64,000 nt of DNA from Streptomyces xanthophaeus (GTDB lineage: Bacteria > Actinomycetota > Actinomycetes > Streptomycetales > Streptomycetaceae), in the NCBI RefSeq assembly GCF_000725805.1, contig NZ_JOFT01000013.1, positions 124,001 to 188,000 on the forward strand, read 5' to 3'. Every line of letters starts with the position of its first letter. Within the stretch, counting starts at the first letter, position 1. Below, piece by piece: positions 1-56,619 of this stretch. Made by a program: the position numbers and the translations under genes. Below the pieces are notes generated by a model that worked only from the letters and a program-made list of their open reading frames with translations, made no database searches and had not been told where the DNA came from.

Positions 1-1492
1 CCTGGCGACGGGTCGGTACCGCGGCACCGGCCGGCAGTGTTCGGACGGCGACGGCCAGGACGCGCATGCCTTCCTGGGCGAGCTCCTCCGCCGCGTCGGC
101 CGCGGACCCCGAACCGCCTTCCAGGGTCTGCAACACCGTCTCCGGCGCTCCTTTGACGACGACGCGCAGACCGTGCACGCCAGCGGCGTGGACGACGGAC
201 ATCAGACGCAGCCGGGGGTCGAAGCGGAAAAGGGCCCGGCGCCCGGTGTCACGGCCTTCGAGGTCGACGGGTGCGGCGTGGGCAGCGGCACCTTCCACCA
301 GGGCCGTTTCCGTCGGGTCGCCGTGAAGTGCGCCTTCTTCGTCGCGGGTGACCGTGGTGCACAGCGCGCTGGTCCGCAGCAGCTCTCCGTCCCAGGGGCC
401 GGGCTCCCTTCCGTGCTCCGGCGTCCACACGGCTTGGAGTCGCATGCGGTTCTGGGTGAGGGTTCCGGTCTTGTCGGTGCAGATGACGTTGGTGGAGCCG
501 AGCGTCTCCACGGCGCTCAGGCGCTTGATCACCGCACCTTGGCGGGCGAGGCCGCGCACGCCGACGGCCAGGGCGAGGGTGATGGTCGGCAGCAGCCCCT
601 CGGGGACGTTGGCGACCAGCAGGCCGATCGCGAACGTCAGGGTGTCCGTCAGCGGCAGGCCCACGGCGACACCGGCCGCCAGGAACACGCCGCCCATGGC
701 GACCGCTACGGCGGCGATGAGCCAGGCAACCTTCTTGACCTGCTGTTCCAGGGGGCTGGGGTCGCGCAGGGTGCGCTGACTCAGTGCGGCGATGCGGCCG
801 AGTTCCGTGTGGTCTCCGGTGGCGAACACGATCGCCTGGGCCTGGCCCCCGGTGCAGACGGTGCCGCTGAACACGAGGTTGGGTTCCTGCAGCAGCGGCG
901 CCCCGACGAGTCCGGGGCCGGCGATGCGTTCGGCAGGGGTGGACTCCCCCGTCAGCATCGACAGGTCGGCCTCGATGCCACCCTCGGTCAGCCGTGCGTC
1001 GGCGGGAACCTTGGCGCCCTCTTCGAGAACGACCAGATCACCCGGCACCAGTCCTCTCGCCTCCACCGCCGAGGACCGGCCGTCGCGGATCACCAGCGCG
1101 TGCTCGGGCAGGTACTTCGCGAGAGTCTCCACCGCCTGTTCGGCCTGCCGCTCCTGGAGGAGCGCGAACGCCGCGTTGACGAGGACCACGGCGATGATGG
1201 CCCACCCGAGCACGGGAATGCCTGCGACGAACGCCAGCGCGGCAGCCGCCCAGAGCAGCATGGCCAGCGGGTGGACGAGCTGGCGGACCAGTTCACGCCC
1301 CAGCGAGGTCCGGGCCTTGCGGCGGACCTCGTTGGGACCGTAGACGGCAAGGCGGCGGGCTGCCTCGCGTGCGGAGAGTCCACTCGGCCCGGTGCCGAGC
1401 TCGCGCCTCAGGAGCGGCAACGGTTCGAGGGGGTCAGGGCTCGCGGGGAGCCCGCCCGCAGGGGACGGGGGCCGGGTCGCTGACTCAGTCAT
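1..1492 (-). CDS. Type II cation-transporting P-type ATPase, N-terminal part (cut by window edge)
   Basis: This membrane pump would couple ATP hydrolysis to cation transport. The visible 497 codons have an N-terminal cation-ATPase domain (about residues 20-85), two membrane hairpins, the actuator motif TGES near residue 180, the membrane motif VPEGL near 297 and the phosphorylation motif DKTGTLT near 339. VPEGL is typical of Ca2+ and Na+/K+ type pumps (family knowledge), so this is not a heavy-metal P1B pump. The ion cannot be told, because membrane helices 5-6 and beyond lie outside the window. The ATG overlaps the stop of the Rv1733c-type gene by 8 bases, so translation is probably coupled. 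In M. tuberculosis the comparable pump CtpF belongs to the dormancy regulon. Confidence 0.9.
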   Translation of the reverse strand, partial: MTESATRPPSPAGGLPASPDPLEPLPLLRRELGTGPSGLSAREAARRLAVYGPNEVRRKARTSLGRELVRQLVHPLAMLLWAAAALAFVAGIPVLGWAIIAVVLVNAAFALLQERQAEQAVETLAKYLPEHALVIRDGRSSAVEARGLVPGDLVVLEEGAKVPADARLTEGGIEADLSMLTGESTPAERIAGPGLVGAPLLQEPNLVFSGTVCTGGQAQAIVFATGDHTELGRIAALSQRTLRDPSPLEQQVKKVAWLIAAVAVAMGGVFLAAGVAVGLPLTDTLTFAIGLLVANVPEGLLPTITLALAVGVRGLARQGAVIKRLSAVETLGSTNVICTDKTGTLTQNRMRLQAVWTPEHGREPGPWDGELLRTSALCTTVTRDEEGALHGDPTETALVEGAAAHAAPVDLEGRDTGRRALFRFDPRLRLMSVVHAAGVHGLRVVVKGAPETVLQTLEGGSGSAADAAEELAQEGMRVLAVAVRTLPAGAAVPTRRQ

Positions 1493-44390: not shown

Positions 44391-47300
44391 GTGCAGCGCT
44401 GGGAGTACGTCGGCGAGAGCTCTGCGAAGTTCTGGGAGGCGCAGGCCGAGGGCGCCTCGGTCACCCTGCGCTTCGGCCGCTCCGGTGCCGCCGGCCGCAC
44501 GCAGGTCAAGGAGTTCGCCTCCCCGGCCGAAGCCACGTCCTACCTGGTCAAGGCCATAGCGGAGAAGGAGCGCAAGGGGTACGGGAAGACCGGCGAGCAG
44601 GCCGCCCCCGCGCGTGCGGCCGAGGCTGCCGAGACGGCCGGGGTCACGGCAGCCTCCGGCGCCGCTGCCCCCGAACTGCCCGACGAGGACTCCTTCACCC
44701 TGCCCGCGGCCTGGAAGCGGAATCTGTACCCGCGGCGCGGGGGTGTGCCGCGCACCGTGCCCGCGGCCTCCGAGGACGCCCCGCAGGAGATGGACCGCCT
44801 GCTGCGCAACCACCGCGACACCGTCGAGCGCGTCCTGACGTCCCGTCGGAGCGAGCCGTCCCTGGTCGAAGCGGCCCGGGCGCACCAGGGCGGCAGCCCC
44901 GACACGGTCGGCGCCGCGGTCCTCGCGACCCTGCTCACGTCCCGGCAGGGCGGACCCGAGCTGATCGCCGACGCCTGGACCGTTGCCTTCGGGCTGCCCT
45001 TCGCCGCCTGCGCCGCGGTCGAACTCCTGGAGGTCCAGGGCTCCTGGCACTCCCACGGCAGCAAGAACACCCTCGAGGCCGTGGCCGTCTGCCCCGAGAA
45101 CCCGATGTACGCGCACCGCAACCACCTCAAGGTCACCCTGGACCGGATCCGCGCCCTGCTGTCCGCAGCCGACCAGGTGACGTACGAGGCCGCGGTGACC
45201 GCCCTCGGCCGGCACCGCACCAGCCCGCGCCGACGGGTCAGCGTGTCCTTCCTCGTCCCTGCCGAGCAGGACTGGGTCGACGACTGCTGCGCCGATCCGG
45301 GAACGCGCGAGCACCCCCACTACCTCGTACGGGAGATGCTCGTCTGCTCGCTCGGCAGGCCGGAGCAGGTCAAGGCGTACGGCGGCCGGGCCGAGATCGG
45401 CTGGCCCGGCTGGTCGGCGGCCGTCATCGCGACCGTGGCCGAGGGCGTGGGCGCAGCGATGGCTCCGCTGCTGAACGGCGAGCTGGACGGGGCCTACGTC
45501 GGCACCGACGAGGTCAGGACGCTGGCGGGCGCACTGGCCGAACTGCCCACCGACGAGGCCTTCGGCCTGCTCCTGAAGCGGTCCGGCAACAAGCACGTGC
45601 GGCCGCCGCTCGTCACGGCCTCCCGCCGATTCCCGGTCCGCTCCCTGCGCATGCTGGCACGTGCCTCGCAAGGGACCGACAATGCCGCCTCGCTGGCGCG
45701 GCAGCTCCTGAACACCCATGTCGCCGCCCACCGGGACCTCGCCCTCGCCGTGCTGCCCACCCTGCCCGAGGACGTCGCCCCGGTCGTGGCCCCGCTCGCC
45801 CACCGGGAAGGGACCGTCGCGGAGGCGTCCCCGGACGCGCTGCCGGAACTGCTGACCAGCCCGCCGTGGACGCGTAAGCGCCGCGCCGTGTCCCCGCCGC
45901 GCGTGGTCGAGGGGCTCACCGCACCGGCCGTGGGGAAGGTGGAATGGCGGCCGGGCGAGCGGGAGGCCTGGGCCGCCACCGACTCGTGGGTCGCCCAATG
46001 GGAGCCCTACCGCCACCCGCTGGAGCACTTCCTCAACGGGCTGCGCAACGGAGTCCGGCTCCCGGCGTGGGACGCGCTGGGCGCGCTCACCCACGGCCCC
46101 GCCGCACTGGTGCGCCCGGTCCTCCTCCACTGGCAGGGCACCGAGCACCTCTACGACGGGCCGAGGAGCTTCAAACCCCTCGTCGCCGCCCACGGACTGG
46201 CGGCCCTGCCGGTCTGCCTGCGCATGGTGGACCGCAATCCCACGACCATGGCCCAGGTCCTGCTGCCCTTCCTCGACGCCCGGGTGGCCCGGGTGATGGC
46301 CGACTGCCTCGTACGGCTGAAGACGGCGGGCCAGACCGCCCGGACCTGGTTCGCCCGGCACGGCGCCGAAGCAGCCGGGCTGCTCGTCCCCGACGCACTC
46401 GGCACGCCCGGGGAAGTACGTACGGCCGCCGAGCGGGCGCTGACCCTGATCGCGGCGAACCACGGACCGGACACGGTCCGCCAGGCCGCCTCTGAGTACG
46501 GGACGGAGGCGGCCGAGGCCATCGAGGTGCTGCTCTCCTGCGACCCCCTGGAGACGGCGCTGCCCGCCCGCCTGCCCAAGGTGGCCGACTGGGCGGTCCC
46601 GCACGCCCTGCCGCAGATCAGGCTGGTGGCCGGCGGCGCCGCGCTCCCCGCCTCCGCGGCCGCGCACGTCATCACGATGCTGGCGCTCTCCAAGCCGGGC
46701 GCGGCCTACCCGGGGCTCGCCTTCGTCCGGGAGCTGTGCACGAAGGAGTCCCTGGCCGCCTTCGTCCAGGCCCTGTTCGGGGAGTGGCAGCTCGCGGGCA
46801 TGCCCCCGAAGGAGGCGTGGACGCTGCACGCGCTCGGCTGGTTCGGCGACGACGACACCGTGCGGTCCCTGACCCCGGTGATCCGCTCCTGGCCCGGGGA
46901 GGGCGCACACCAGCGGGCCGTCGAAGGGCTCGACGTCCTGGCGTCCATCGGCACCGACGTGGCCCTGATGCACCTGCACGGGATCTCCCAGCGGGTGAAG
47001 TTCAAGGCGCTCAAGCTCCGCGCCCAGGAGAAGATCACCGAAGTCGCGGCCGAACTCGGCCTGAGCGGCGAGCAGTTGTCCGACCGGCTGGTCCCGGACC
47101 TCGGTCTCGACGCCGACGGGAGCACCGTCGTCGATTACGGCACGCGCAGCTTCACCGTCGGCTTCGACGAACGGCTGGCCCCGTACGTGCGCGATGCGAC
47201 GGGCCGCGCACTGAAGGACCTGCCCAAGCCGGGTGCACGCGACGACGCCGAGCTGGCCCCGGCCGAGCGCAAGCGCTTCATGGCGCTGAAGAAGGACGTC

Positions 47301-48017
47301 AGGACGATCGCCTCGGACCAGGTGCGGCGCCTGGAGTCCGCGATGGTCGAGGGGCGCACGTGGACGGGCGAGGAGTTCCGCCGGCTGTTCGTCGAGCACC
47401 CGCTCGTCTGGCACCTGGTGCGGCGCCTCGTGTGGCTGGCGGCCGACGCGGACGGCGCCGTGACGGCCTTCCGGGTGGCCGAGGACCGTACGTACGCCGA
47501 CGCCGAGGACGAGGCGGTCACCGTCCCGGACGCGGCGACCGTCAGCCTGGCGCACCCCCTGCACCTATCGGAGGCCGAACTGGCCTCGTGGTCCGGGCTG
47601 TTCGCCGACTACGAGATCCTCCAGCCCTTCCCCCAGCTGGGCCGGCCGGTGTTCGCGGTCACCGAGGAGGAGGCGGGCGGGGCCCGGCTCACCCGCTTCG
47701 AGGGCGTCAAGGTGCCGGTCGGCAAGCTCCTCGGGATGCAGAAGCGCGGCTGGGAACGCGGGGAGCCGCAGGACGCCGGTGTGGAACGCTGGTTCTCCCG
47801 CCGGCTGGGTCCGCAGTGCCACCTGGTGATCGCGCTCGACGAGGGCATCGCGGTGGGCATGGTCCAGGAATTCCCCGACCAGACGCTGGAGACGATCTGG
47901 CTGGACCGGCAGCCCTGCGACCACTGGCCCTCCCGGACCTACCCGCTGAAGTTCGCCGACCTGGACCCGGTCATCGTCTCCGAGGTGCTCGCCGACCTGA
48001 CGGAGCTGACCTCATGA
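44391..48017 (+). CDS. WGR domain - DUF4132 protein (YehI/MolR-like)
   Basis: The 1208-residue protein has an N-terminal WGR domain (about 1-75; YVGESSAKFWEAQAEGASVTLRFGRSG), often a DNA-end or nucleic-acid contact in PARP-like proteins. A long helical, HEAT-like middle region follows (about 120-880; repeated ALAELPTDEAFGLLL, VAAHRDLALAVLPTLPEDVAP type helices). The C-terminal DUF4132 domain is at about 930-1200 (RKFMALKKDVRTIA type helices, EEFRRLFVEHPLVWHLVRRLVW, LPLKFADLDPVIVSEVLADL-like end). The GTG follows GGGGAGGCAGC. It is the first of five genes joined by overlapping stops and starts. E. coli YehI is the recognised counterpart. Confidence 0.88.
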   Translation: MQRWEYVGESSAKFWEAQAEGASVTLRFGRSGAAGRTQVKEFASPAEATSYLVKAIAEKERKGYGKTGEQAAPARAAEAAETAGVTAASGAAAPELPDEDSFTLPAAWKRNLYPRRGGVPRTVPAASEDAPQEMDRLLRNHRDTVERVLTSRRSEPSLVEAARAHQGGSPDTVGAAVLATLLTSRQGGPELIADAWTVAFGLPFAACAAVELLEVQGSWHSHGSKNTLEAVAVCPENPMYAHRNHLKVTLDRIRALLSAADQVTYEAAVTALGRHRTSPRRRVSVSFLVPAEQDWVDDCCADPGTREHPHYLVREMLVCSLGRPEQVKAYGGRAEIGWPGWSAAVIATVAEGVGAAMAPLLNGELDGAYVGTDEVRTLAGALAELPTDEAFGLLLKRSGNKHVRPPLVTASRRFPVRSLRMLARASQGTDNAASLARQLLNTHVAAHRDLALAVLPTLPEDVAPVVAPLAHREGTVAEASPDALPELLTSPPWTRKRRAVSPPRVVEGLTAPAVGKVEWRPGEREAWAATDSWVAQWEPYRHPLEHFLNGLRNGVRLPAWDALGALTHGPAALVRPVLLHWQGTEHLYDGPRSFKPLVAAHGLAALPVCLRMVDRNPTTMAQVLLPFLDARVARVMADCLVRLKTAGQTARTWFARHGAEAAGLLVPDALGTPGEVRTAAERALTLIAANHGPDTVRQAASEYGTEAAEAIEVLLSCDPLETALPARLPKVADWAVPHALPQIRLVAGGAALPASAAAHVITMLALSKPGAAYPGLAFVRELCTKESLAAFVQALFGEWQLAGMPPKEAWTLHALGWFGDDDTVRSLTPVIRSWPGEGAHQRAVEGLDVLASIGTDVALMHLHGISQRVKFKALKLRAQEKITEVAAELGLSGEQLSDRLVPDLGLDADGSTVVDYGTRSFTVGFDERLAPYVRDATGRALKDLPKPGARDDAELAPAERKRFMALKKDVRTIASDQVRRLESAMVEGRTWTGEEFRRLFVEHPLVWHLVRRLVWLAADADGAVTAFRVAEDRTYADAEDEAVTVPDAATVSLAHPLHLSEAELASWSGLFADYEILQPFPQLGRPVFAVTEEEAGGARLTRFEGVKVPVGKLLGMQKRGWERGEPQDAGVERWFSRRLGPQCHLVIALDEGIAVGMVQEFPDQTLETIWLDRQPCDHWPSRTYPLKFADLDPVIVSEVLADLTELTS

Positions 48018-49108
48018 GCGCGCCCGGGGAACTGCTCCAGCGGCCGCCCGCCGAGGTGCGCTACGCCGAGGAGCTCGCCGCGCTGCGCGCCCAGGACGCC
48101 GACCACCGGCCGCCGGGCTGGCAGCTGAGCCTGCGGGCGGCCCTCCGCTTCGTCGTCGGGGACGAGGCGGCCGGCATCAGCCGCAAGTTCGTCGGCGACA
48201 CGGCCCTGGTCGAACGGGCGCTGGTGACGCTGGCGACCAACCGGGGCCTGATGCTCGTCGGCGAACCCGGCACGGCCAAGTCCCTGCTGTCCGAGCTGAT
48301 CTCGGCGGCCGTCAGCGGCGAGTCCACCCTGGTCGTCCAGGGCGGGGCGGCCACCACCGAGGACCAGATCAAGTACTCCTGGAACTACGCCCTGCTCGTC
48401 GCCGAGGGGCCCTCGCAGCGCTCCCTGGTGCCCGCGCCGATGCTCACGGGCATGCGCGAGGGCCGCCTCGTGCGGTTCGAGGAGATCACCCGCTGCCCGC
48501 TGGAGGTACAGGACTCGCTGCTGTCCCTGCTCTCCGAACGGGTGGTGTCCATACCCGAGCTGGAGGGACCCGAGGGCATGGCCTTCGCCCGCCAGGGGTT
48601 CAATGTGATCGCGACGGCCAACACCCGCGACCGCGGGGTCAACGAGATGAGCGCCGCCCTCAAGCGGCGGTTCAACTACGAGACCGTCTTCCCGATCGCC
48701 GACCCGGACACCGAGACCGCCCTGGTCGAGGCCGAGGCCACGGCCCTGCTGCGCCGCTCGGGCGTGCCCGCGGCGCCGGACCGCGACGTCCTGGAGGTCC
48801 TGGTGACCACCTTCCGCGAACTGCGTTCCGGGGTCGCCCACGACGGCGCGGGCATGGACCGCCTCACCTCGGTGATGAGCACCGCCGAGGCCGTGTCGGT
48901 CGCGCACGCGGTCGGCGTACGGGGCTGGTTCCTGCGCGGCGAGCCCGGCAACGCCGCCGACGTGGTCACCTGCCTGGCCGGCACTGCGGCCAAGGACAGC
49001 CCGGAGGACCTGGCCCGGCTGCGCCGCTACCTCGAACAGCGCGTGGCCGGGCGGGGCGGCGCCCAGTGGAAGGCCCTGCACGCCGCCCGTCACCTGCTGG
49101 CGGGCTGA
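48014..49108 (+). CDS. MoxR-type AAA+ ATPase (YehL-like)
   Basis: The 364-residue ATPase has Walker A GEPGTAKS near residues 83-90, Walker B LVRFEEITR near 153 (Asp replaced by Glu-Glu, as in MoxR relatives), sensor 1 IATANTRD near 200 and arginine-finger region SAALKRRFNYET near 215. MoxR ATPases work with VWA proteins as chaperones that load metals or remodel complexes. ATGA overlap with the DUF4132 gene. Its VWA partner is two genes downstream. Confidence 0.92.
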   Translation: MSAPGELLQRPPAEVRYAEELAALRAQDADHRPPGWQLSLRAALRFVVGDEAAGISRKFVGDTALVERALVTLATNRGLMLVGEPGTAKSLLSELISAAVSGESTLVVQGGAATTEDQIKYSWNYALLVAEGPSQRSLVPAPMLTGMREGRLVRFEEITRCPLEVQDSLLSLLSERVVSIPELEGPEGMAFARQGFNVIATANTRDRGVNEMSAALKRRFNYETVFPIADPDTETALVEAEATALLRRSGVPAAPDRDVLEVLVTTFRELRSGVAHDGAGMDRLTSVMSTAEAVSVAHAVGVRGWFLRGEPGNAADVVTCLAGTAAKDSPEDLARLRRYLEQRVAGRGGAQWKALHAARHLLAG

Positions 49109-51465
49109 TGGTGGTCACCTTCCTGGGCGTGCGCCACCACTCCCCCGCCTGTGCCCGGCTGGTGGCGCGCACGATCTCCGAACTGCGGCCCGCCCACGTG
49201 CTGATCGAGGGCCCGGCGGACCTGGGCGGCAGACTGGACGAGCTGCTGCTGGGCCACGAGCTGCCGGTCGCGGTGTTCAGCCACTACCGGGACGAGGAGC
49301 GGTCCGCCACGTCCTGGGCCCCGTTCTGCGACTACTCGCCCGAGTGGGTCGCGCTCACCGCCGGGCGGGCGGCGGGGGCGCAGGTCCACTTCATCGACCT
49401 GCCCGCCTGGCACCCGGCCTTCGACGGGCGCACCAACCGGTACGCCGACGCCGAGGCCCGGTACGAGCAGGCCACCGCCCTGCTGTGCCGCCGCTTCGAG
49501 GTGGACTCGGTGGACGCCCTGTGGGACCGCCTCTTCGAGGCCGGGCCGCAGGACGGCGGGGCCGCGGCGGACGGGCCGGCCGAGCGGCTCGCGGCGTACT
49601 TCGACGTCGTGCGCGGGGACACGGAGGCGGACGAGGGCGACCGGGCCCGCGAGGCGTACATGGCCTCCTGGGTACGGGCCGCGGTGGCCGCGGCCGGGCA
49701 GCGGCCCGTCCTCGTCGTGACGGGCGGCTTCCACCGGCCCGCCCTGCGGGCCCTCGTGGAGGCCGGCGGGCCCGTCCCGGACGGCTGGCCGGAGGTACCC
49801 CCTCCGCCGCCCGGCGCGGTGGGCGGCAGCTTCCTCGTCCCCTACTCCTTCCGGCAGCTCGACGCCTTCTGCGGCTACCAGTCCGGGATGCCCTCGCCCG
49901 CGTACTACCAGCAGCTGTGGGAGGAAGGAGCACGCGCGGCGGGCGAGGGCCTGGTGCGCGCCGTGACGGGGCGGCTGCGCGAGCGCGGCCATCCGGTCTC
50001 CACGGCCGCCCTGGTCGCCGCCCGGAGCACCGCGCTCGGCCTGGCCGCCCTGCGCGGCCACCCCGAGCCGACCCGGCTCGACCTGCTGGACGGGCTGGCC
50101 GGGGCACTGGTCACCGACGCGCTCGACGAGCCTCTGCCGTGGACCCGGCGCGGCCCGCTCGGCCCCGGGGCGCACCCCGCCGTCGTGGAGATGGTGGCGG
50201 CCTGTGGCGGCGACCGCGTCGGCCGGCTGCACCCCGACACCCCCGCGCCGCCGCTCGTGCACGACGTCGAGGCCGCACTGGCCGGGCTGGGCCTGGACTC
50301 CGGGCGCCCCGTCACCCTGCGCCTGACCGATCCGGCGGACCTGGGACGCAGTCAGGTGCTGCACCGGCTGCGGGTGCTGGGCGTGCCCGGCTTCGAGCGG
50401 GTCTTGGGACCCGCCGACGGCAGCGACCCGGTCTTCACCGAGCGCTGGGAACCCCGTTCGGGGACGCCCCGCGAGGCCGCGCTGATCGAGGCGGGCGGCT
50501 TCGGAGCGACCCTCGCCGAGGCGGCGGCCGTCGCGCTCGGCGACCGGGCGCGGGCTGCGGGGGCCGCGCCCGGGGCGCTTGCGGGGGTGCTGTTCGATGC
50601 CGTCGTGTGCGGGGCCGCGGACCTCTCGGGCCGGCTGGTGGCCGAGCTCGGCGCGGGCCTCGGCCGGGCGAGCACGCTGGGGCCGCTGGGCGAGGCGCTG
50701 AGCACGGCGCTGGGCCTGTGGCGGCACGACAGGGTGTACTGCGTGGCGCGCGATCCGCTGCTCGCGGCCGTGGTCGACAGCGCGGTGACCCGCGTGCTGT
50801 GGCTCGCCGAGGGGGCGGGCGGCGCGGGCGGGCCCGATGCCGGGCGGCTGCAGGCGCTGGCCGCCGTACGGGATGCGCTGCTGCACGCCGAGGGACTGCT
50901 GTCGGTGTCCCGCGAGACGGCGGCCGGGATCTGCGGGCGGATCAGCGCGGACCGGTCGGCCCCGGCCTCCCTGCGGGGCGCGGCGTTCGGCCTGTGCCGC
51001 GTCCTGTCGGAGGCGGCCCCCGCGCCCGCGGGCGCATCCGGCAGCGCGGGGGCCGCGGCCCGGGCGGTGGCGGGTCCGCAGGAGCTCGGGGACTGGCTGG
51101 CGGGCCTGTTCGCCCTCGCCCGTGCGGAACTGACCGGTGGCGGTGGCCCCGAGCCGCTGATCGACGTGCTGGACGAGCTGCTCGCCGCCATGACCGAGAC
51201 GGACTTCCTGGTGGGCCTGCCCTCGCTGCGTCAGGCGTTCGCGTACTTCCCGCCCCGCGAGCGCGAGCAGATCGCCGCCCGCCTGATCGAACGGCGCGGT
51301 CTGCGCGGCTCGGCCCGGTCCCTGCTGCGGACCACCGCCGACCCGCTGCTGATCGCCCGCGCCCGAGCCCTGGAGGACCACGTGGGGCGCACGCTCGACC
51401 GTTACGGCCTGGGGGCGCCCCCTCGGCACGGCGCGGTCCCGACGACGACCGGAGGCCCGGCATGA
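49108..51465 (+). CDS. DUF5682 family protein (YehM-like)
   Basis: The 785-residue protein begins VVTFLGVRHHSPACARLVA and has LIEGPADLGGRLDELL near 35, SHYRDEERSATSWAPFCDYSPEWVAL near 60-85 and FIDLPAWHPAF near 98. It ends with FAYFPPREREQIAARLIERRG. The N-terminal part (about 1-270) resembles EreA/TraB-type folds (HH...E pattern), suggesting a metal-dependent hydrolase (inference). The A of its ATG is the last base of the MoxR stop (TGATG). A GTG one codon later is an equal alternative start. E. coli YehM is the counterpart. Confidence 0.85.
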   Translation: MVVTFLGVRHHSPACARLVARTISELRPAHVLIEGPADLGGRLDELLLGHELPVAVFSHYRDEERSATSWAPFCDYSPEWVALTAGRAAGAQVHFIDLPAWHPAFDGRTNRYADAEARYEQATALLCRRFEVDSVDALWDRLFEAGPQDGGAAADGPAERLAAYFDVVRGDTEADEGDRAREAYMASWVRAAVAAAGQRPVLVVTGGFHRPALRALVEAGGPVPDGWPEVPPPPPGAVGGSFLVPYSFRQLDAFCGYQSGMPSPAYYQQLWEEGARAAGEGLVRAVTGRLRERGHPVSTAALVAARSTALGLAALRGHPEPTRLDLLDGLAGALVTDALDEPLPWTRRGPLGPGAHPAVVEMVAACGGDRVGRLHPDTPAPPLVHDVEAALAGLGLDSGRPVTLRLTDPADLGRSQVLHRLRVLGVPGFERVLGPADGSDPVFTERWEPRSGTPREAALIEAGGFGATLAEAAAVALGDRARAAGAAPGALAGVLFDAVVCGAADLSGRLVAELGAGLGRASTLGPLGEALSTALGLWRHDRVYCVARDPLLAAVVDSAVTRVLWLAEGAGGAGGPDAGRLQALAAVRDALLHAEGLLSVSRETAAGICGRISADRSAPASLRGAAFGLCRVLSEAAPAPAGASGSAGAAARAVAGPQELGDWLAGLFALARAELTGGGGPEPLIDVLDELLAAMTETDFLVGLPSLRQAFAYFPPREREQIAARLIERRGLRGSARSLLRTTADPLLIARARALEDHVGRTLDRYGLGAPPRHGAVPTTTGGPA

Positions 51466-52685
51466 ACGGAGCCGGAACCACACCACCCGGGTCCTCCCCC
51501 GGGTCCACGCCCGGATCCGCCCCCGTCCCCGCTCCCTCTCCCGTCCCCGTCCCCGCCCCGGATCCCACGCTGGAGCGGTGGCGGCTCGTCCTCGGTACCC
51601 CCGCCGAGCGGTGCACCGGCCCGCTCTCCGCCCAGGCCGCGGCCCGCGACGCCGCCCTGGACTGGCTCTACGGCCGCGACGCCGAACAGGCCCGGCGCGG
51701 AGTGCGGCCCGGGGCGCACGCGCGTCCCGGCGGAGACGGGCCCTCCGCGGTCACCACCGTCGACTGGCTCGACGACGTCCACCGCCTCTTCCCCAAGGAG
51801 ACCGTCGAGCGGCTGGAGCGGGACGCCGTGGAGCTGTACGAGATCCACGAGATCGTCACCGACCCGGCGGTGCTGGAACGCGTGGAGCCCAACGCCACCT
51901 TGCTGCGCGCCGTACTGCGGACCAAGCACCTGATGAACCCCGAGGTCCTGCGGCTGGCGCGGCGGATCGTGGAGGCGGTGGTGCGCCGTCTCCTCGCACA
52001 GCTGACCCCCGAGGTCCGGCGTTCCTTCACCGGCAGCCGCTCCCGGCGCCCGAGCCGCCTGCCGCTGGCCCGCGACTTCGACTTCCGCGGTACCGTCCGC
52101 GCCAACCTGGCCCACTACCAGCCCGCCGAGCGGCGCGTCCTCATCGAGAGGCCGCGCTTCCACTCGCGCACCCGCGCGCATCTGGAGCAGTGGCAGCTGA
52201 TCCTGCTGGTGGACCAGTCCGGCTCCATGGCCGGTTCGGTCATCCACTCCGCGGTGACGGCGGCCTGCCTGTGGGGGCTGCCGGGCCTGAAGACCCATCT
52301 GGTCTGCTTCGACACCGACGTGGTGGACCTGAGCGGCGAGGTCACCGACCCGGTGGAGGTGCTGATGCGCGTCCAGCTCGGCGGCGGCACCGACATCGCC
52401 AGGGCCGTCGACTACGGGGCCTCCCTCGTGGAGAACCCGCGCCGCTCCGTCGTCGTTCTGATCACCGACTTCTACGAGGGCGGCGACCCCTACCGTCTGG
52501 TGCGCGGCGTACGGGCGCTCGTCGAGCAGGGCAGCACCGTGCTCGGCCTCGCCGCGCTCGACGAGGAGGCGGATCCGGCGTACGACCGCCAGGTCGCCCA
52601 GCGGCTGGCCGACGCCGGCGCGCACGTCGGGGCGATGACCCCGGGCGAGCTGGCCGCGTTCGTGGCCGAGCGGCTGGGCCGATGA
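51462..52685 (+). CDS. VWA domain protein (YehP-like)
   Basis: The 407-residue protein has a Pro/Ser/Gly-rich linker (residues 5-38), a helical middle region (about 50-235; HRLFPKETVERLERDAVELYEIHEI) and a von Willebrand A domain (about 245-400). The metal site DQSGSMAGS (MIDAS) lies near residue 250, with GGGTDIARA near 308 and ITDFYEGG near 333, so the MIDAS is complete. It partners with the MoxR ATPase in this family. Its ATG overlaps the DUF5682 stop (ATGA). Confidence 0.9.
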   Translation: MNGAGTTPPGSSPGSTPGSAPVPAPSPVPVPAPDPTLERWRLVLGTPAERCTGPLSAQAAARDAALDWLYGRDAEQARRGVRPGAHARPGGDGPSAVTTVDWLDDVHRLFPKETVERLERDAVELYEIHEIVTDPAVLERVEPNATLLRAVLRTKHLMNPEVLRLARRIVEAVVRRLLAQLTPEVRRSFTGSRSRRPSRLPLARDFDFRGTVRANLAHYQPAERRVLIERPRFHSRTRAHLEQWQLILLVDQSGSMAGSVIHSAVTAACLWGLPGLKTHLVCFDTDVVDLSGEVTDPVEVLMRVQLGGGTDIARAVDYGASLVENPRRSVVVLITDFYEGGDPYRLVRGVRALVEQGSTVLGLAALDEEADPAYDRQVAQRLADAGAHVGAMTPGELAAFVAERLGR

Positions 52686-54814
52686 CGGCCCGCGCCGACC
52701 TGCTCGCCCTGGACACCGGCACCCTCGCCGAGCTGGCCAACCGCGGCCTCGTCAAACGTGCCGCGAAGGAGCTCGACGCGGGCGCCGGGGCGGTGGTCTC
52801 CACGGACGGGGACGGCGCCCTCCAGGGCCGTTTCCCCGACGGCACCCTGGCCTGCCTGCCGCCGGGTGCGGGCCTCGGGCAGGGCTCCTGCACCTGCGGG
52901 GCGCCCGGAATCTGCCGCCACCTGATCGGCCTGGTGCTCGCCCACCAGCGGGCGGCCGGGGCGCATGCGGCAGGGGAAGAGGGCGAGGCACGGGGACCGG
53001 CAGGGACCGCGATACGAGCCGGGGACGCAGACGCAGATGCAGATGCCGCCCGGGCCGGAGCCGGGGCCGGAGCCGGAGCCCGGGTCGGAGCCGGACCTCT
53101 GGGCTGGTCCCCCGGCGACCTCGACGACGAGCTGCTGTCCGCCGCCGTGGGTGCGCGGGCGCTCACCGCGGCGCGGCGGGTGCTGGCGCGCGGCTACACC
53201 GCGCGGCTGCACCGGCCGAGCGCGGCGGACCCCGTCGCCCGGGCCGAACTCCCCACCTGCACCGTACGGTTCCCGGTCCCGGCACCGGACGGGGTCGCCC
53301 ACGCGGTCACCGACGCCGCCGCCGACCGCCGCGGGGAGATGATCGCGTTGGCCGTCTGGGCGTTCCGCGCGGCCGCCGGGGCGGATTGCGCGGACCCACC
53401 CACCCAGGTCGACGTGGGAGGTCCCGCCGCCCGGTCCCGTACCGGCGGCCCCGAACTGGCCACGGCGGCCGCACTCCTGGACGACCTGCTGCTGGACGGC
53501 GCCGCACACGCCGGACCGGTGCTGGCCACGGCCCTGCGCCGGGTCCGGGACGAACTGGCCGGCCGGGCCCTGCACTGGCCGGCCGACACCCTCACCGAGC
53601 TGATCGAACAGCTCGACGACCACGCGGCCCGCGGGGCCCGCTACCGCACCGAGCGGCACGCCCTGCTGATCACCGAGTTCCATGCCCGGGTCCGCGCCGC
53701 CGCCGCGGCGGCCGGGGCCGACGGCGCACCGCGCGGCCCGCTCTCCGTGTCCCAGGTGCTGGGCTCCGGCGAACGGGGCGACACCGCGCTGCGCCGGGTG
53801 CGGCTGACCGCGCTCGGCTGCCGGATCGGCGGCACCCCGCAGGAGCGGACCGCCGAGGTGTTCCTCGCACACGGCGCGGCCGGCACCGCCCTGGTGCTGC
53901 GGCGGCGCTGGGAGCTCGCGGAGGGCCAGGAACCGACGGGTCCGGAACTGGCGGCCCGGCGGCTGGCGGGAACCACCCTGGGGGCGGTGGCCCGGGGCAA
54001 TCTGGTGAGCGACAGTGCGTCCCGTACGCCCGCCCGGTCCGTCCGCATCGCCGGTACCCGCCTGGCGTCGACCGGCGTGACTCCGGTCGGTTCCGCATGG
54101 ACGGAGCTGCCGGAGCCTCTGCTGCTGCGGGACTTCGCCGCGCACGCGCGGGCGCTGGAGCAGCTTCCGCCGTTCCTGGTGCGGCCCCGGATCGAGGCCG
54201 ACTCCGTGCACGTGGTGGAGGTGCACGGGGTGGCGGAGATCGGCTACGACCCGGCCCAGCAGCGGCTGGAGGCGAGGGTCCGCGATGCGCGGGGCGCATG
54301 GGCGACGGTGTCCGCGGCGTACAACCCGTACAGTCCGGGCGCGCTGGACGTGCTCGCCGAGGCGCTGGCCGGAGGGAGCGGCGAGGTCCGCTACCTGAGC
54401 GCCTTCGTCCGCGGCACGGGCCACGGCCTCTGCCTCGACCCGATCGCCGTCATGACGGACGGCGGCGTGAGCGTGCCGGACCTCGCGGCGCCGCCCGTCG
54501 GCGGCTCCCGGGTCGTGTCGGCCGTGGGTACGGGCCCCCGCGATCCGCTGGCCGGGGCGTTGGAGGCCGCGCTCGCGGCTCTCGCGGAGGCGGCCGGCCG
54601 GGGTCTGCGCCACCTGCCGGAGGGTGCCCGGGCCGAGCTGGAGGAAGCCGCGGCCGCGCTGGCCCGGACGGGCCTGGCCACCGCCGCCGCACGGGTCCGC
54701 GCCTTCCTCGCCGCCCACCGGCAGGCGGGCCCGCGGGCAGCCGTCGGCCCGTGGCTGGAGGCGCAGGTGCAGCTGCTGACCGCGCTCGAACTGCGCGGAC
54801 GTCAGCCCCGGTAG
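52682..54814 (+). CDS. SWIM zinc-finger protein (YehQ-like)
   Basis: The 710-residue protein has a SWIM zinc finger near residues 69-85 (GSCTCGAPGICRHLIGLVLAHQ; the CxC...CxH ligands are complete), typical of DNA or protein binding. A low-complexity Ala/Gly/Glu linker (about 95-140, GAGAGAGARVGAG) and a large unassigned C-terminal region (about 145-710) follow. The ATG overlaps the VWA stop by ATGA. It is the last gene of the operon; a hairpin covers its stop codon. Confidence 0.88.
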   Translation: MTARADLLALDTGTLAELANRGLVKRAAKELDAGAGAVVSTDGDGALQGRFPDGTLACLPPGAGLGQGSCTCGAPGICRHLIGLVLAHQRAAGAHAAGEEGEARGPAGTAIRAGDADADADAARAGAGAGAGARVGAGPLGWSPGDLDDELLSAAVGARALTAARRVLARGYTARLHRPSAADPVARAELPTCTVRFPVPAPDGVAHAVTDAAADRRGEMIALAVWAFRAAAGADCADPPTQVDVGGPAARSRTGGPELATAAALLDDLLLDGAAHAGPVLATALRRVRDELAGRALHWPADTLTELIEQLDDHAARGARYRTERHALLITEFHARVRAAAAAAGADGAPRGPLSVSQVLGSGERGDTALRRVRLTALGCRIGGTPQERTAEVFLAHGAAGTALVLRRRWELAEGQEPTGPELAARRLAGTTLGAVARGNLVSDSASRTPARSVRIAGTRLASTGVTPVGSAWTELPEPLLLRDFAAHARALEQLPPFLVRPRIEADSVHVVEVHGVAEIGYDPAQQRLEARVRDARGAWATVSAAYNPYSPGALDVLAEALAGGSGEVRYLSAFVRGTGHGLCLDPIAVMTDGGVSVPDLAAPPVGGSRVVSAVGTGPRDPLAGALEAALAALAEAAGRGLRHLPEGARAELEEAAAALARTGLATAAARVRAFLAAHRQAGPRAAVGPWLEAQVQLLTALELRGRQPR

Positions 54815-54850
54815 GCCGCCAGGGGCGCAGGAGCTCCGCCGGGCGGCCTA
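54812..54850. terminator. Hairpin at the end of the five-gene operon
   Basis: TAGGCCGCC (54812-54820) pairs with GGCGGCCTA (54842-54850) across a 21-base loop. The left arm contains the TAG stop of the SWIM gene and the right arm contains the stop of the leftward DHFR-like remnant, so it can serve both strands. Confidence 0.6.
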
Positions 54851-55110
54851 CTTCACGAAGCGGTACTTCTGGTGGGTGGCGAGGGGCGTGCCGATCGCGC
54901 TGACCGGCTCCAGGTTCCTCGGCCCGGCGCCCGGTCCCTCGAAGAGCCGCAGCCCCGCTCCGAGGAGCGCGGGCACCACGTGGCTCCGAGGAGCGCGGGC
55001 ACCACGTGCAGCTGCAGCTCGTCGATGAGCCCCTCCGCGAGGTACTGCTGCACGGTGCTCGCTCCGCCCGCGATGCCGACGTTCCTGTGCCCGGCGGCGC
55101 CGCCTGTCAT
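54848..55110 (-). pseudogene. RibD C-terminal / dihydrofolate-reductase-family remnant, broken by a 26-bp duplication
   Basis: The frame from 55110 reads VGIAGGASTVQQYLAEGLIDELQLHVVPALLGA, the conserved C-terminal part of RibD_C/DHFR-family proteins. A 26-bp tandem duplication (54957-55008) then shifts the frame; the continuation GLRLFEGPGAG is in the next frame and ends normally at 54848. The N-terminal 100 or so residues are gone, so this was broken twice. Confidence 0.8.
54957..55008. repeat. 26-bp tandem duplication in the DHFR-family remnant
   Basis: Two identical 26-bp units (54957-54982, 54983-55008) are adjacent. Since 26 is not a multiple of three, the second copy caused the frameshift. 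Confidence 0.95.
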
Positions 55111-55188
55111 GCCCTGGCGCTCCCTCCTGCGTCGAACGGCAGCCCCCGCATTCGACAGGGCTTGCAGACGGACCTCCGCCGTCGCTCC

Positions 55189-56619
55189 TCAGCCGCGGTA
55201 GGCCTCCAGCAGCCGCAGCCAGACCTCGCTGATCGTGGGGAAGGCCGGGACGGCGTGCCACAGGCGGGCGATCGGGACCTCCGCCGCGACGGCAATCGTG
55301 GCGGCGTGCAGCATTTCCGCCGCGCCCGGGCCGACGAACGTCACCCCGAGCAGGACCTCGCGGTCCAGGTCGACGACCATCCGGGCGCGGCCCCGGTAGC
55401 CGTCGGCGTACAGGCCCGCGCCGGAGACCTTGGACAGGTCGTAGTCGACGGCGCGCACCCGGTGACCGGCCCGTTCCGCCTCGGCCAGGCTGAGGCCCAC
55501 CGCTGCGGCCTCCGGGTCGGTGAAGACCACCTGCGGGAGGGCTCCGGTGTCGGCGGTGGCCGCGTACGGGCCCCAGCGGTCCGGGTCTGCCGGGTCCGTG
55601 CCGGCGGCCCGGGCGGCGATCGCGGCGCCCGCGATCCGGGCCTGGTACTTGCCCTGGTGGGTGAGGAGCGCGCGGTGGTTGACGTCCCCGACGGCGTACA
55701 GCCAGTCGTGCCCCGGGACCCGGCAGCCGTCGTCCACGCCGATCCAGTCCCCGGGGGTCAGGCCGACGGTCTCCAGTCCGATGTCCTCGGTCCGCGGTGA
55801 GCGGCCCGTCGCCATCAGCAGTTCGTCGCCCTGGATGATCTCGCCGCCCTCCAGCACCACCGAGACGGGCCCGGTGGAACCGTCCCGTACGACGGCCTCG
55901 ACGGCCACGCCGGTACGGACCACCGCGCCGGCCTCCGTCAGCGCCTCGGCGACCAGCTCACCGGCGAACGGTTCCATCCTCGGCAGCATCCGCGGCCCCC
56001 GGACCAGGACGGTCACCTGGGAGCCGAGCGCCTGCCAGGCGGTGGCCATCTCCGCGGCCACCACGGAACCCCCGACGATCAGCAGCCGACCCGGCGCCTC
56101 CTGCGCGGAGGTGGCCTCGCGGCTCGTCCACGGCCGGGCCCCCTCGATCCCGGGCAGGGCGGGGATCACGGCCCGGGTACCCGTGGCGACGACCACCGCG
56201 TGCCGGGCGGCGAGCACGTGGTGCTCGCCCTCGGGACTCGTCACGGCGACCTTGCGGACCCCGTAGAGCCTGCCGTGGCCCCGGTACACATGGGCACCGG
56301 TGGACTCCAGCCAGTCGATCTGGCCGTCGTCCTTCCAGTGGCCGGTCCAGTAGTCCCGGTGCGCGAACACCGCCGCCGTGTCCAGCGGCCCGGCGACGGC
56401 CTCCGCCAGCCCGGGCACCCGGCGCGCGTCCGCCCGGGCCAGGGCCGGCCGCAGCAGGGCCTTGCTCGGGACGCAGGCCCAGTACGAGCATTCGCCGCCG
56501 ACGAGTTCGCTCTCCACCAGGGCCGTGCTCAGCCCTGCCGCGCGCGTCCGGTCGACGATGTTCTCGCCGGCGGGACCCCCGCCGAGCACCACGACGTCGT
56601 ACTCCACCGCTTCAGTCAT
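55189..56619 (-). CDS. Pyridine nucleotide-disulfide oxidoreductase (dihydrolipoamide/mercuric reductase type)
   Basis: The 476-residue flavoprotein has an FAD-binding GGGPAGENIVDRTRAAG near residues 12-28 and the redox-active disulfide motif GGECSYWACVPSKALLRP with Cys near 43 and 48. The NAD(P) site LLIVGGSVVAAEMA lies near 175, the FAD motif YAVGDVNHRALLTHQGKYQA near 315-335, and the dimerisation domain ends FPTISEVWLRLLEAY. The C-terminal His-Glu pair of lipoamide dehydrogenase (HPT.SE) is here FPTISE, so the catalytic His is absent, as in some mycothione- or SthA-like relatives. The ATG at 56619 is placed by the leaderless promoter. Confidence 0.9.
   Translation of the reverse strand: MTEAVEYDVVVLGGGPAGENIVDRTRAAGLSTALVESELVGGECSYWACVPSKALLRPALARADARRVPGLAEAVAGPLDTAAVFAHRDYWTGHWKDDGQIDWLESTGAHVYRGHGRLYGVRKVAVTSPEGEHHVLAARHAVVVATGTRAVIPALPGIEGARPWTSREATSAQEAPGRLLIVGGSVVAAEMATAWQALGSQVTVLVRGPRMLPRMEPFAGELVAEALTEAGAVVRTGVAVEAVVRDGSTGPVSVVLEGGEIIQGDELLMATGRSPRTEDIGLETVGLTPGDWIGVDDGCRVPGHDWLYAVGDVNHRALLTHQGKYQARIAGAAIAARAAGTDPADPDRWGPYAATADTGALPQVVFTDPEAAAVGLSLAEAERAGHRVRAVDYDLSKVSGAGLYADGYRGRARMVVDLDREVLLGVTFVGPGAAEMLHAATIAVAAEVPIARLWHAVPAFPTISEVWLRLLEAYRG

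Follow-up and report, generated by a model that had tools for sequence, protein, structure and literature searches.

The yeh-like operon of Streptomyces xanthophaeus: a conserved gene unit around a MoxR–DUF5682–VWA core with a predicted hydrolase

In a stretch of 64,000 nucleotides from Streptomyces xanthophaeus (assembly GCF_000725805.1, contig NZ_JOFT01000013.1, positions 124,001 to 188,000 of the forward strand), which we call the window, five overlapping open reading frames span positions 44391–54814 of the plus strand and encode, in this order, a WGR/DUF4132 protein, a MoxR AAA+ ATPase, a DUF5682 protein, a VWA protein and a SWIM zinc-finger protein (Table 1). A first-pass annotation of this DNA had described the five genes as overlapping at ATGA or TGATG ends, and both its coordinates and its overlaps proved exact, the junctions reading, in gene order, ATGA, TGATG (with one base shared), ATGA and ATGA. 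In relatives, a start codon overlapping the upstream stop by 4 or 1 nucleotides is also available at 40 of 72 junctions of DUF4132/MoxR, 55 of 78 of MoxR/DUF5682, 59 of 74 of DUF5682/VWA and 65 of 76 of VWA/SWIM; given that the overlaps recur in relatives and that the gene order is kept, they are probably no accident.

The operon and its relatives

The conservation of this unit was followed in 80 loci that were the best 80 matches to the window DUF5682 and are thus of one type by choice. Their open frames were searched with iterated profiles, and gene order was counted in the 68 loci where DUF5682 is flanked on either side by 5 kb or more, the 12 others being dropped. The order DUF4132 (one or more copies)–MoxR–DUF5682–VWA–SWIM, called type A below, was found in 64 of the 68, one of these having a further DUF4132 gene downstream; in the four exceptions DUF4132 lies between DUF5682 and VWA (two loci), lies on the opposite strand (one) or was not found within the flanks (one). 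The annotation had proposed a single unit and had named the separation of the five genes in other genomes as the observation that would refute it, and the neighbourhood survey bears out the proposal, since the genes stay together. The nearest relative of the window DUF5682, at 98% identity, is labelled Streptomyces xanthophaeus as well, and the loci placed in our trees represent Actinomycetota, Pseudomonadota, Acidobacteriota, Myxococcota and unassigned bacteria. In the 70 loci holding all five genes, the pairwise identity matrices of the proteins correlate at 0.83–0.96, values that none of 500 permutations reached for any pair. Common descent of the operon would produce such a pattern, physical contact between the proteins not being proven thereby. 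The operon is real and ancient.

The annotation had also matched the domain order to yehI/L/M/P/Q of E. coli, and rightly so: K-12, whose genes run yehI-yehK-yehL-yehM-yehP-yehQ, holds the same five families in the same order, and both its MoxR and its DUF5682 proteins fall in the type A group. Between the window and E. coli the identities are 63% for MoxR, 58% for VWA, 28% for DUF4132 and 27% for SWIM. The E. coli operon differs in having the extra gene yehK, a separate gene for a WGR protein (yehF) and a second SWIM motif in YehQ, which the window SWIM protein lacks. As separate observations on the E. coli locus, the yehQ frames of K-12 and of strain cS53a differ in length, that of K-12 being shorter by 53 codons, so that longer copies exist. 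K-12 carries yehH as a pseudogene, and in cS53a a DUF4132 gene lies 5' of yehI. For MoxR, a YehL subfamily has already been named (PMC3893208); this and the other papers cited here by PMC number were available in part, and what we take from them extends to those parts. In the searched literature, which left most subscription papers outside its scope, we found no functional study of the yeh operon and no paper with the name DUF5682.

An invariant trio in four architectures

To avoid the similarity-based choice of the 80 loci, the DUF5682 Pfam family was searched in 198 genomes of the host phylum, of which 17 were positive, yielding 27 loci (window included) that were all read with profiles. MoxR, DUF5682 and VWA stand side by side in all 27 loci, and what surrounds them defines four architectures. 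Type A (3 loci: the window, L128 and L134, with E. coli outside this sample being of the same type) combines the core with DUF4132 and SWIM. Type B (16 loci) has SWIM and the core, together with DUF5691, which is clear in 10 loci, weak in 5 and undetectable in 1. Type C (6 loci) has a short DUF4132 protein, a protein of about 1660 residues, MoxR, and DUF5682 and VWA in one uninterrupted frame; and type D (2 loci) has VWA, MoxR and DUF5682, with SWIM, DUF4132 and DUF5691 undetected. The five-gene system described by the annotation stands as a kept unit; SWIM and DUF4132 are replaceable, and the core across the four architectures is MoxR–DUF5682–VWA.

The window genome holds types A, B and C together. 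Trees of MoxR and of DUF5682, with 44 rows each, give full support to the separation of types B, C and D; type A forms one DUF5682 group that is weakly supported (90/48) and one MoxR group, except for L128, whose long branch joins type C. Nineteen type A rows group with E. coli and the window, on a MoxR branch supported at 96/93 and a DUF5682 branch at 100/99, and the window MoxR and DUF5682 thus lie with the E. coli proteins and apart from their same-genome paralogues. Given that the window DUF5682 is 38–39% identical to YehM of E. coli vs. 31% to the type B copy of its own genome, these are old parallel systems and not recent copies. The invariant trio, the four architectures, the optional WGR domain and the predicted active site described below appear to be new here.

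Some further observations concern the sister clusters. The type B cluster of the window genome (contig C32) lies, by eye, between divergent SWIM/DUF5691 genes and two sucC-sucD-like genes, and its type C cluster (contig C8) has the protein of about 1660 residues and the DUF5682–VWA frame. That long protein (L006:1869-6851 in the window genome) gave no Pfam match at E ≤ 0.01 and stands between the short DUF4132 gene and MoxR in 6 of 6 type C loci. By annotation, type B is also present on plasmids of Deinococcus, Rhizobium and Methylosinus, the Methylosinus region listing no VWA gene.

Table 1. Features of the operon in the window, with positions counted from its first nucleotide
Feature	Position	Strand	Basis
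WGR/DUF4132 protein, 1208 residues	44391-48017	+	GTG start 3' of GGGGAGG; Pfam
WGR domain	residues 8-68, 44412-44594	+	Pfam 46.6 bits vs cut-off 22
HEAT-like helical repeats of WGR/DUF4132 protein	residues ~600-900	+	helical-repeat matches, model
DUF4132 domain	residues 938-1121, 47202-47753	+	Pfam 215.5 bits vs cut-off 27
MoxR AAA+ ATPase (YehL type), 364 residues	48014-49108	+	Pfam AAA_5 124.7 bits vs 22
MoxR Walker A GEPGTAKS	48260-48283	+	
MoxR Walker B-like RFEE	48473-48484	+	
MoxR sensor Asn203, Arg218/219	within 48014-49108	+	
DUF5682 protein (YehM type), 785 residues	49108-51465	+	Pfam 339.6 bits vs cut-off 26
DUF5682 N-terminal alpha/beta domain, likely Tiki/TraB/ChaN-like	49108-49782	+	invariant residues, fold matches, sub-threshold Pfam matches
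DUF5682 key residues	H10 (49135), E34 (49207), R181-E182 (49648), H209 (49732)	+	
DUF5682 C-terminal HEAT-like region, mostly helical	residues 264-765, 49897-51402	+	predicted structure
VWA (CoxE-like) protein, 407 residues	51462-52685	+	Pfam VWA_CoxE 187.4 bits vs 26.4
VWA MIDAS D251-x-S-x-S255	52212-52226, plus T310, D336	+	
SWIM zinc-finger protein, 710 residues	52682-54814	+	Pfam SWIM 14.2 bits, below cut-off 19.6
Single SWIM finger C70-x-C72-x5-C78-x-H80	52889-52921	+	C-x-C-x5-C-x-H ligands present

DUF5682 and the proposed machine

The annotation had called DUF5682 a large protein, which it is, and it is more than that, being probably the enzyme of the system, with a putative Tiki-like domain and invariant residues. 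In its structural model (predicted local distance difference test, pLDDT, 88.2; predicted template-modelling score, pTM, 0.85) an alpha/beta domain at the N-terminus is followed by a HEAT-like region, and it is on this predicted alpha/beta domain that the invariant His/Glu/Asp/Arg set lies: two G-x-x-H motifs, Glu34 on strand 2 and Arg181 on the helix that precedes the final strand of the core. The key residues are invariant in 45 of 45 proteins, and H10, E34, R181 and H209 in 28 of 28 from the four architectures, where the Gly of the first motif is Pro in 3 of the 28. We take G-x-x-H to be a motif of the Tiki/TraB/ChaN superfamily; it is seen in YbaP too, and the fold matches of the DUF5682 model include HopBA1. 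Sub-threshold Pfam matches point the same way, namely TraB (PF01963, best E 0.0087, in 4 of 37 proteins) and ChaN (PF04187, best E 0.0043, in 8 of 37). DUF5682 is thus like the Tiki/TraB/ChaN/EreA hydrolases in its two G-x-x-H motifs, its strand-2 Glu, its Arg and its HopBA1 fold match, and unlike them in the lack of E-x-H, in its long HEAT-like C-terminal region and in its place beside MoxR and VWA.

Several results weigh against a hydrolase of this kind. The E-x-H of RRSP, part of a 2His/2Glu set, is absent from DUF5682, which has V8-R9-H10 instead and in which no second Glu is assigned; no DUF5682 match rises over the curated TraB or ChaN cut-off, the window protein reaching 13.9 bits for ChaN vs. 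27.7; the whole-model Foldseek search gave no E below 0.001, and searches of solved structures gave nothing significant; and two hhalign comparisons of N-terminal DUF5682 alignments with an alignment of YbaP/TraB were negative, the profiles being shallow and the test weak. A richer TraB/ChaN profile was unobtainable from the phylum because these families are almost absent there, with ChaN in 0 of 60 sampled genomes and TraB in 1 of 60, this lone match being without the first His. Taken together, the N-terminal domain likely belongs to the Tiki superfamily, and we do not file DUF5682 in TraB or ChaN because its matches stay below cut-off and the profile comparisons were negative.

The motifs of the motor side are intact. 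MoxR carries Walker A, a Glu-Glu Walker B, the sensor Asn and the Arg residues (under what we take to be the usual names of these motifs) in all four types (79 and 28 sequences), and the metal ion-dependent adhesion site (MIDAS) of VWA is complete (77 and 28 sequences), except in one type D protein with Asn for T310. As an observation by itself, Walker B reads Glu-Glu in 28 of 28 sequences of all types, while MoxR and most AAA+ proteins have Asp-Glu there. The annotation had spoken of a complete MoxR–VWA pair and of a remodelling machine, and to judge from these motifs the term seems apt. The sole solved relatives of the window MoxR at E ≤ 0.001 are midasins, in which a MIDAS domain and an AAA+ ring strip protein off pre-ribosomes. 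The midasin system is listed in PMC7159879, and midasin, RavA–ViaA, CoxD–CoxE and NorQ–NorD all join an AAA+ motor to a VWA co-chaperone, as the window operon does; unlike it, they have no DUF5682 or Tiki-type partner mentioned in the available parts of PMC3893208 and PMC7159879. Nor did we find in the searched literature any paper on Tiki enzymes joined to MoxR. For jumbo phages a MoxR–VWA pair is described whose VWA is fused to a predicted peptidase (PMC7824862, in part); this fusion resembles the type C frame in joining a predicted enzyme to VWA and differs from it in that the phage domain is a metallopeptidase and that no viral copy of DUF5682 was found.

With all of this in mind, and with a probability that we put slightly below even (about 0.45), we propose that the operon specifies a protein-remodelling complex that is driven by ATP and contains a hydrolase. 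A client bound at the metal site of VWA would be pulled by VWA and the MoxR ring, as in midasin, RavA–ViaA or CoxD–CoxE, and would be presented to the DUF5682 active site, or else that site would be opened up; DUF5682, as a putative Tiki/TraB/ChaN-type enzyme, would then cleave a peptide or ester bond; and SWIM and the HEAT/DUF4132 protein, with WGR optional, would choose the client, being swapped for other modules in the sister architectures. The DUF5682–VWA fusion of type C argues for joint action of the enzyme and the client-binding VWA as a single unit. A stronger and rather doubtful version would make MoxR–VWA–DUF5682 an unrecognised class of ATP-dependent protein-cleaving machine, having a Tiki-type His/Glu site and swappable SWIM/HEAT adaptors. 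If true, the Tiki-type site would stand where Clp, Lon, HslUV, FtsH and the proteasome have serine, threonine or zinc-metalloprotease sites, and most E. coli genomes would retain a machine of this class, one Streptomyces having three versions of it in parallel. Should the trio prove to be an ATP-driven hydrolase at all, it would bring new active-site chemistry among energy-dependent machines and would explain the YehL subfamily of MoxR. The likely active site and the invariant trio make "function unknown" testable by point mutants and reconstitution, including for yehLMPQ, widely kept E. coli genes for which no known function was found; and the four architectures are a natural experiment, in which changes of SWIM, DUF4132 and DUF5691 should alter client choice.

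The same arrangement may be read the other way round, with DUF5682 as the client and not the tool: MoxR–VWA would activate or metal-load it, and the mature enzyme would act on a small molecule or a non-protein bond. Many characterised MoxR–VWA pairs mature one partner enzyme or complex (PMC3893208; PMC7159879, both in part), CoxD–CoxE and NorQ–NorD among those activating partner enzymes. DUF5682 adjoins the MoxR and VWA genes or is fused to VWA, metal could be bound by its conserved His/Glu/Asp set, and the SWIM finger is of the zinc type. A maturase, however, leaves the DUF4132, SWIM and DUF5691 partners without a clear role, and the tandem DUF4132 arrays described below suggest a diversified client-binding part, so that we regard it as possible and on balance unlikely.

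Adaptors, other roles and surroundings

In type A the median identities are 0.78 for MoxR, 0.69 for VWA, 0.57 for DUF5682, 0.45 for SWIM and 0.41 for DUF4132; SWIM and DUF4132 are thus the fastest to diverge and are also swapped between architectures, as expected of adaptors. Counted above 400 bits over the 68 loci, DUF4132 is present in one copy in 39, two in 19, three in 8, four in 1 and none in 1, that is, 28 of 68 loci hold two or more, and because 48 of the 66 copies of multi-copy loci have their nearest relative in another locus, these tandem arrays are old. The model of residues 600–1208 of the WGR/DUF4132 protein (pLDDT 95.1) shows a HEAT-like stack followed by conserved strands and helices, its first 300 residues matching helical repeats and the conserved remainder being without a clear relative. 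Of 75 SWIM proteins from type A loci, 73 carry the C-x-C-x(4-9)-C-x-H motif, that of the window among them, and the two misses are partial matches. On the side, a second such motif occurs in 16 of these 75, namely E. coli and 15 loci from Pseudomonadota, Acidobacteriota, Myxococcota and unassigned metagenome-assembled genomes, including one such genome labelled Propionibacteriaceae, while a single motif is present in the window protein and in the other actinobacterial proteins examined. A resistance transposon is also reported in the DUF4132 region of ST131 isolates (PMC9334617, in part).

WGR is a nucleic-acid-associated domain, and the annotation had stressed it as a nucleic-acid contact. 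That emphasis is not sustained: by the WGR profile, only 36 of 113 full-length DUF4132 frames have it, and any WGR at all is found in 32 of 78 loci with room for it (window and E. coli included in both counts), so that WGR is optional in DUF4132 proteins. The annotation had also held a DNA-repair role possible, in which a damage or repair machine would act on DNA-bound protein complexes via WGR. WGR is called DNA-binding in PMC7824862 and, in Deinococcus radiodurans, the DUF4132 operon drA0165-drA0166 and the WGR gene dr2173 rise on depletion of the damage repressor DdrO (PMC8533742); against this, the other 77 of the 113 frames have no WGR, a LexA-type box was found in 0 of 61 upstream regions (0.4 being expected, so the test has little power), and PMC8533742, as far as its available parts go, gives no link between the Deinococcus genes and a DUF5682 operon. 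We therefore consider repair very unlikely for the operon, with no support from its sequence, and the Deinococcus induction data leave a stress role open. Far less probable still is molybdate metabolism, according to which the old molR name, which we take to belong to the E. coli yehF-H-I genes, would reflect their true role. MolR and molybdate are mentioned in PMC8533742, and yet the molybdate genes named there are reported unchanged in its available text, and no gene named for molybdenum metabolism is among the listed neighbours of the loci examined.

A conflict system had likewise been thought possible, and here it would take the form of a MoxR–vWA ternary system in which DUF4132 would be the variable sensor and DUF5682 the effector. 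The operon resembles these systems (PMC7159879, in part) in the same two switch parts, a MoxR ATPase and a MIDAS-bearing vWA, and in having at least one further constant protein; it is unlike them in that the third component is DUF5682, that there is no recognised effector and that it is kept in most E. coli genomes. In favour of conflict, type A is patchy in Streptomyces (8 of 121 genomes, tracked by the type A SWIM protein), one plasmid type A operon lies beside a type I restriction system, and DUF4132, often tandemly duplicated, is the fastest of four E. coli genes tested, omega between two strains (one pair) being 0.20 for yehI, 0.11 for yehM, 0.08 for yehP and 0.03 for yehL, all under purifying selection. 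On the other hand, yehLMPQ are retained in 5162 of 5426 complete E. coli genomes (95%, with at least 80% of the yehL-Q query covered), the DUF5682 family is present in 117 of 121 Streptomyces genomes, and 111 of the 121 have, among the matches listed, one of at least 755 bits, type-B-like by score alone. A search of 50,697 phage records gave no copy, the viral contig scan confirming none. The five proteins gave no PADLOC match at E ≤ 0.001 (best E 0.01), the bpMoxR model reached 22.4 on the window MoxR vs. its cut-off of 27, and no effector domain was recognised with Pfam and PADLOC models, further models of the ternary systems being covered as far as Pfam includes them. From the E. coli retention, the Streptomyces prevalence and the absence of phage or viral copies, we favour a physiological role for the family, which does not have the appearance of a typical mobile defence system; a conflict role of the mobile kind is thus not favoured and seems improbable overall, while the patchiness of type A in Streptomyces still fits it. 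The family is present in 28 plasmid records, and the five examined hold one E. coli chromosomal block, three type B operons (one without a VWA row) and the type A operon just mentioned. The chromosomal block, yehI-mlrA on the conjugative E. coli plasmid p11A_p2, sits amid IS26 copies and resistance genes.

Promoter and terminator scans at the operon found nothing. On its 5' side lies a divergent metallophosphatase gene, and on its 3' side a short frame without a Pfam match, followed by a pyridine nucleotide-disulphide oxidoreductase and then a thioredoxin. Of ten flanking proteins, a metallophosphatase alone gave a PADLOC match (E 2e-6). Farther upstream, positions 2700–29600 of the window hold a PPDK-type enzyme, a GH65 enzyme, a CBS-BON protein, a rhodanese, a metal P-type ATPase, a flavodoxin and a PAS-SpoIIE phosphatase, in our reading a stress- or dormancy-like neighbourhood. 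The short 3' frame (54848-55261, minus strand), whose C-terminus resembles by eye a RibD/dihydrofolate-reductase-type protein, contains a perfect 26-base tandem duplication at 54957-55008 and is possibly a gene remnant.

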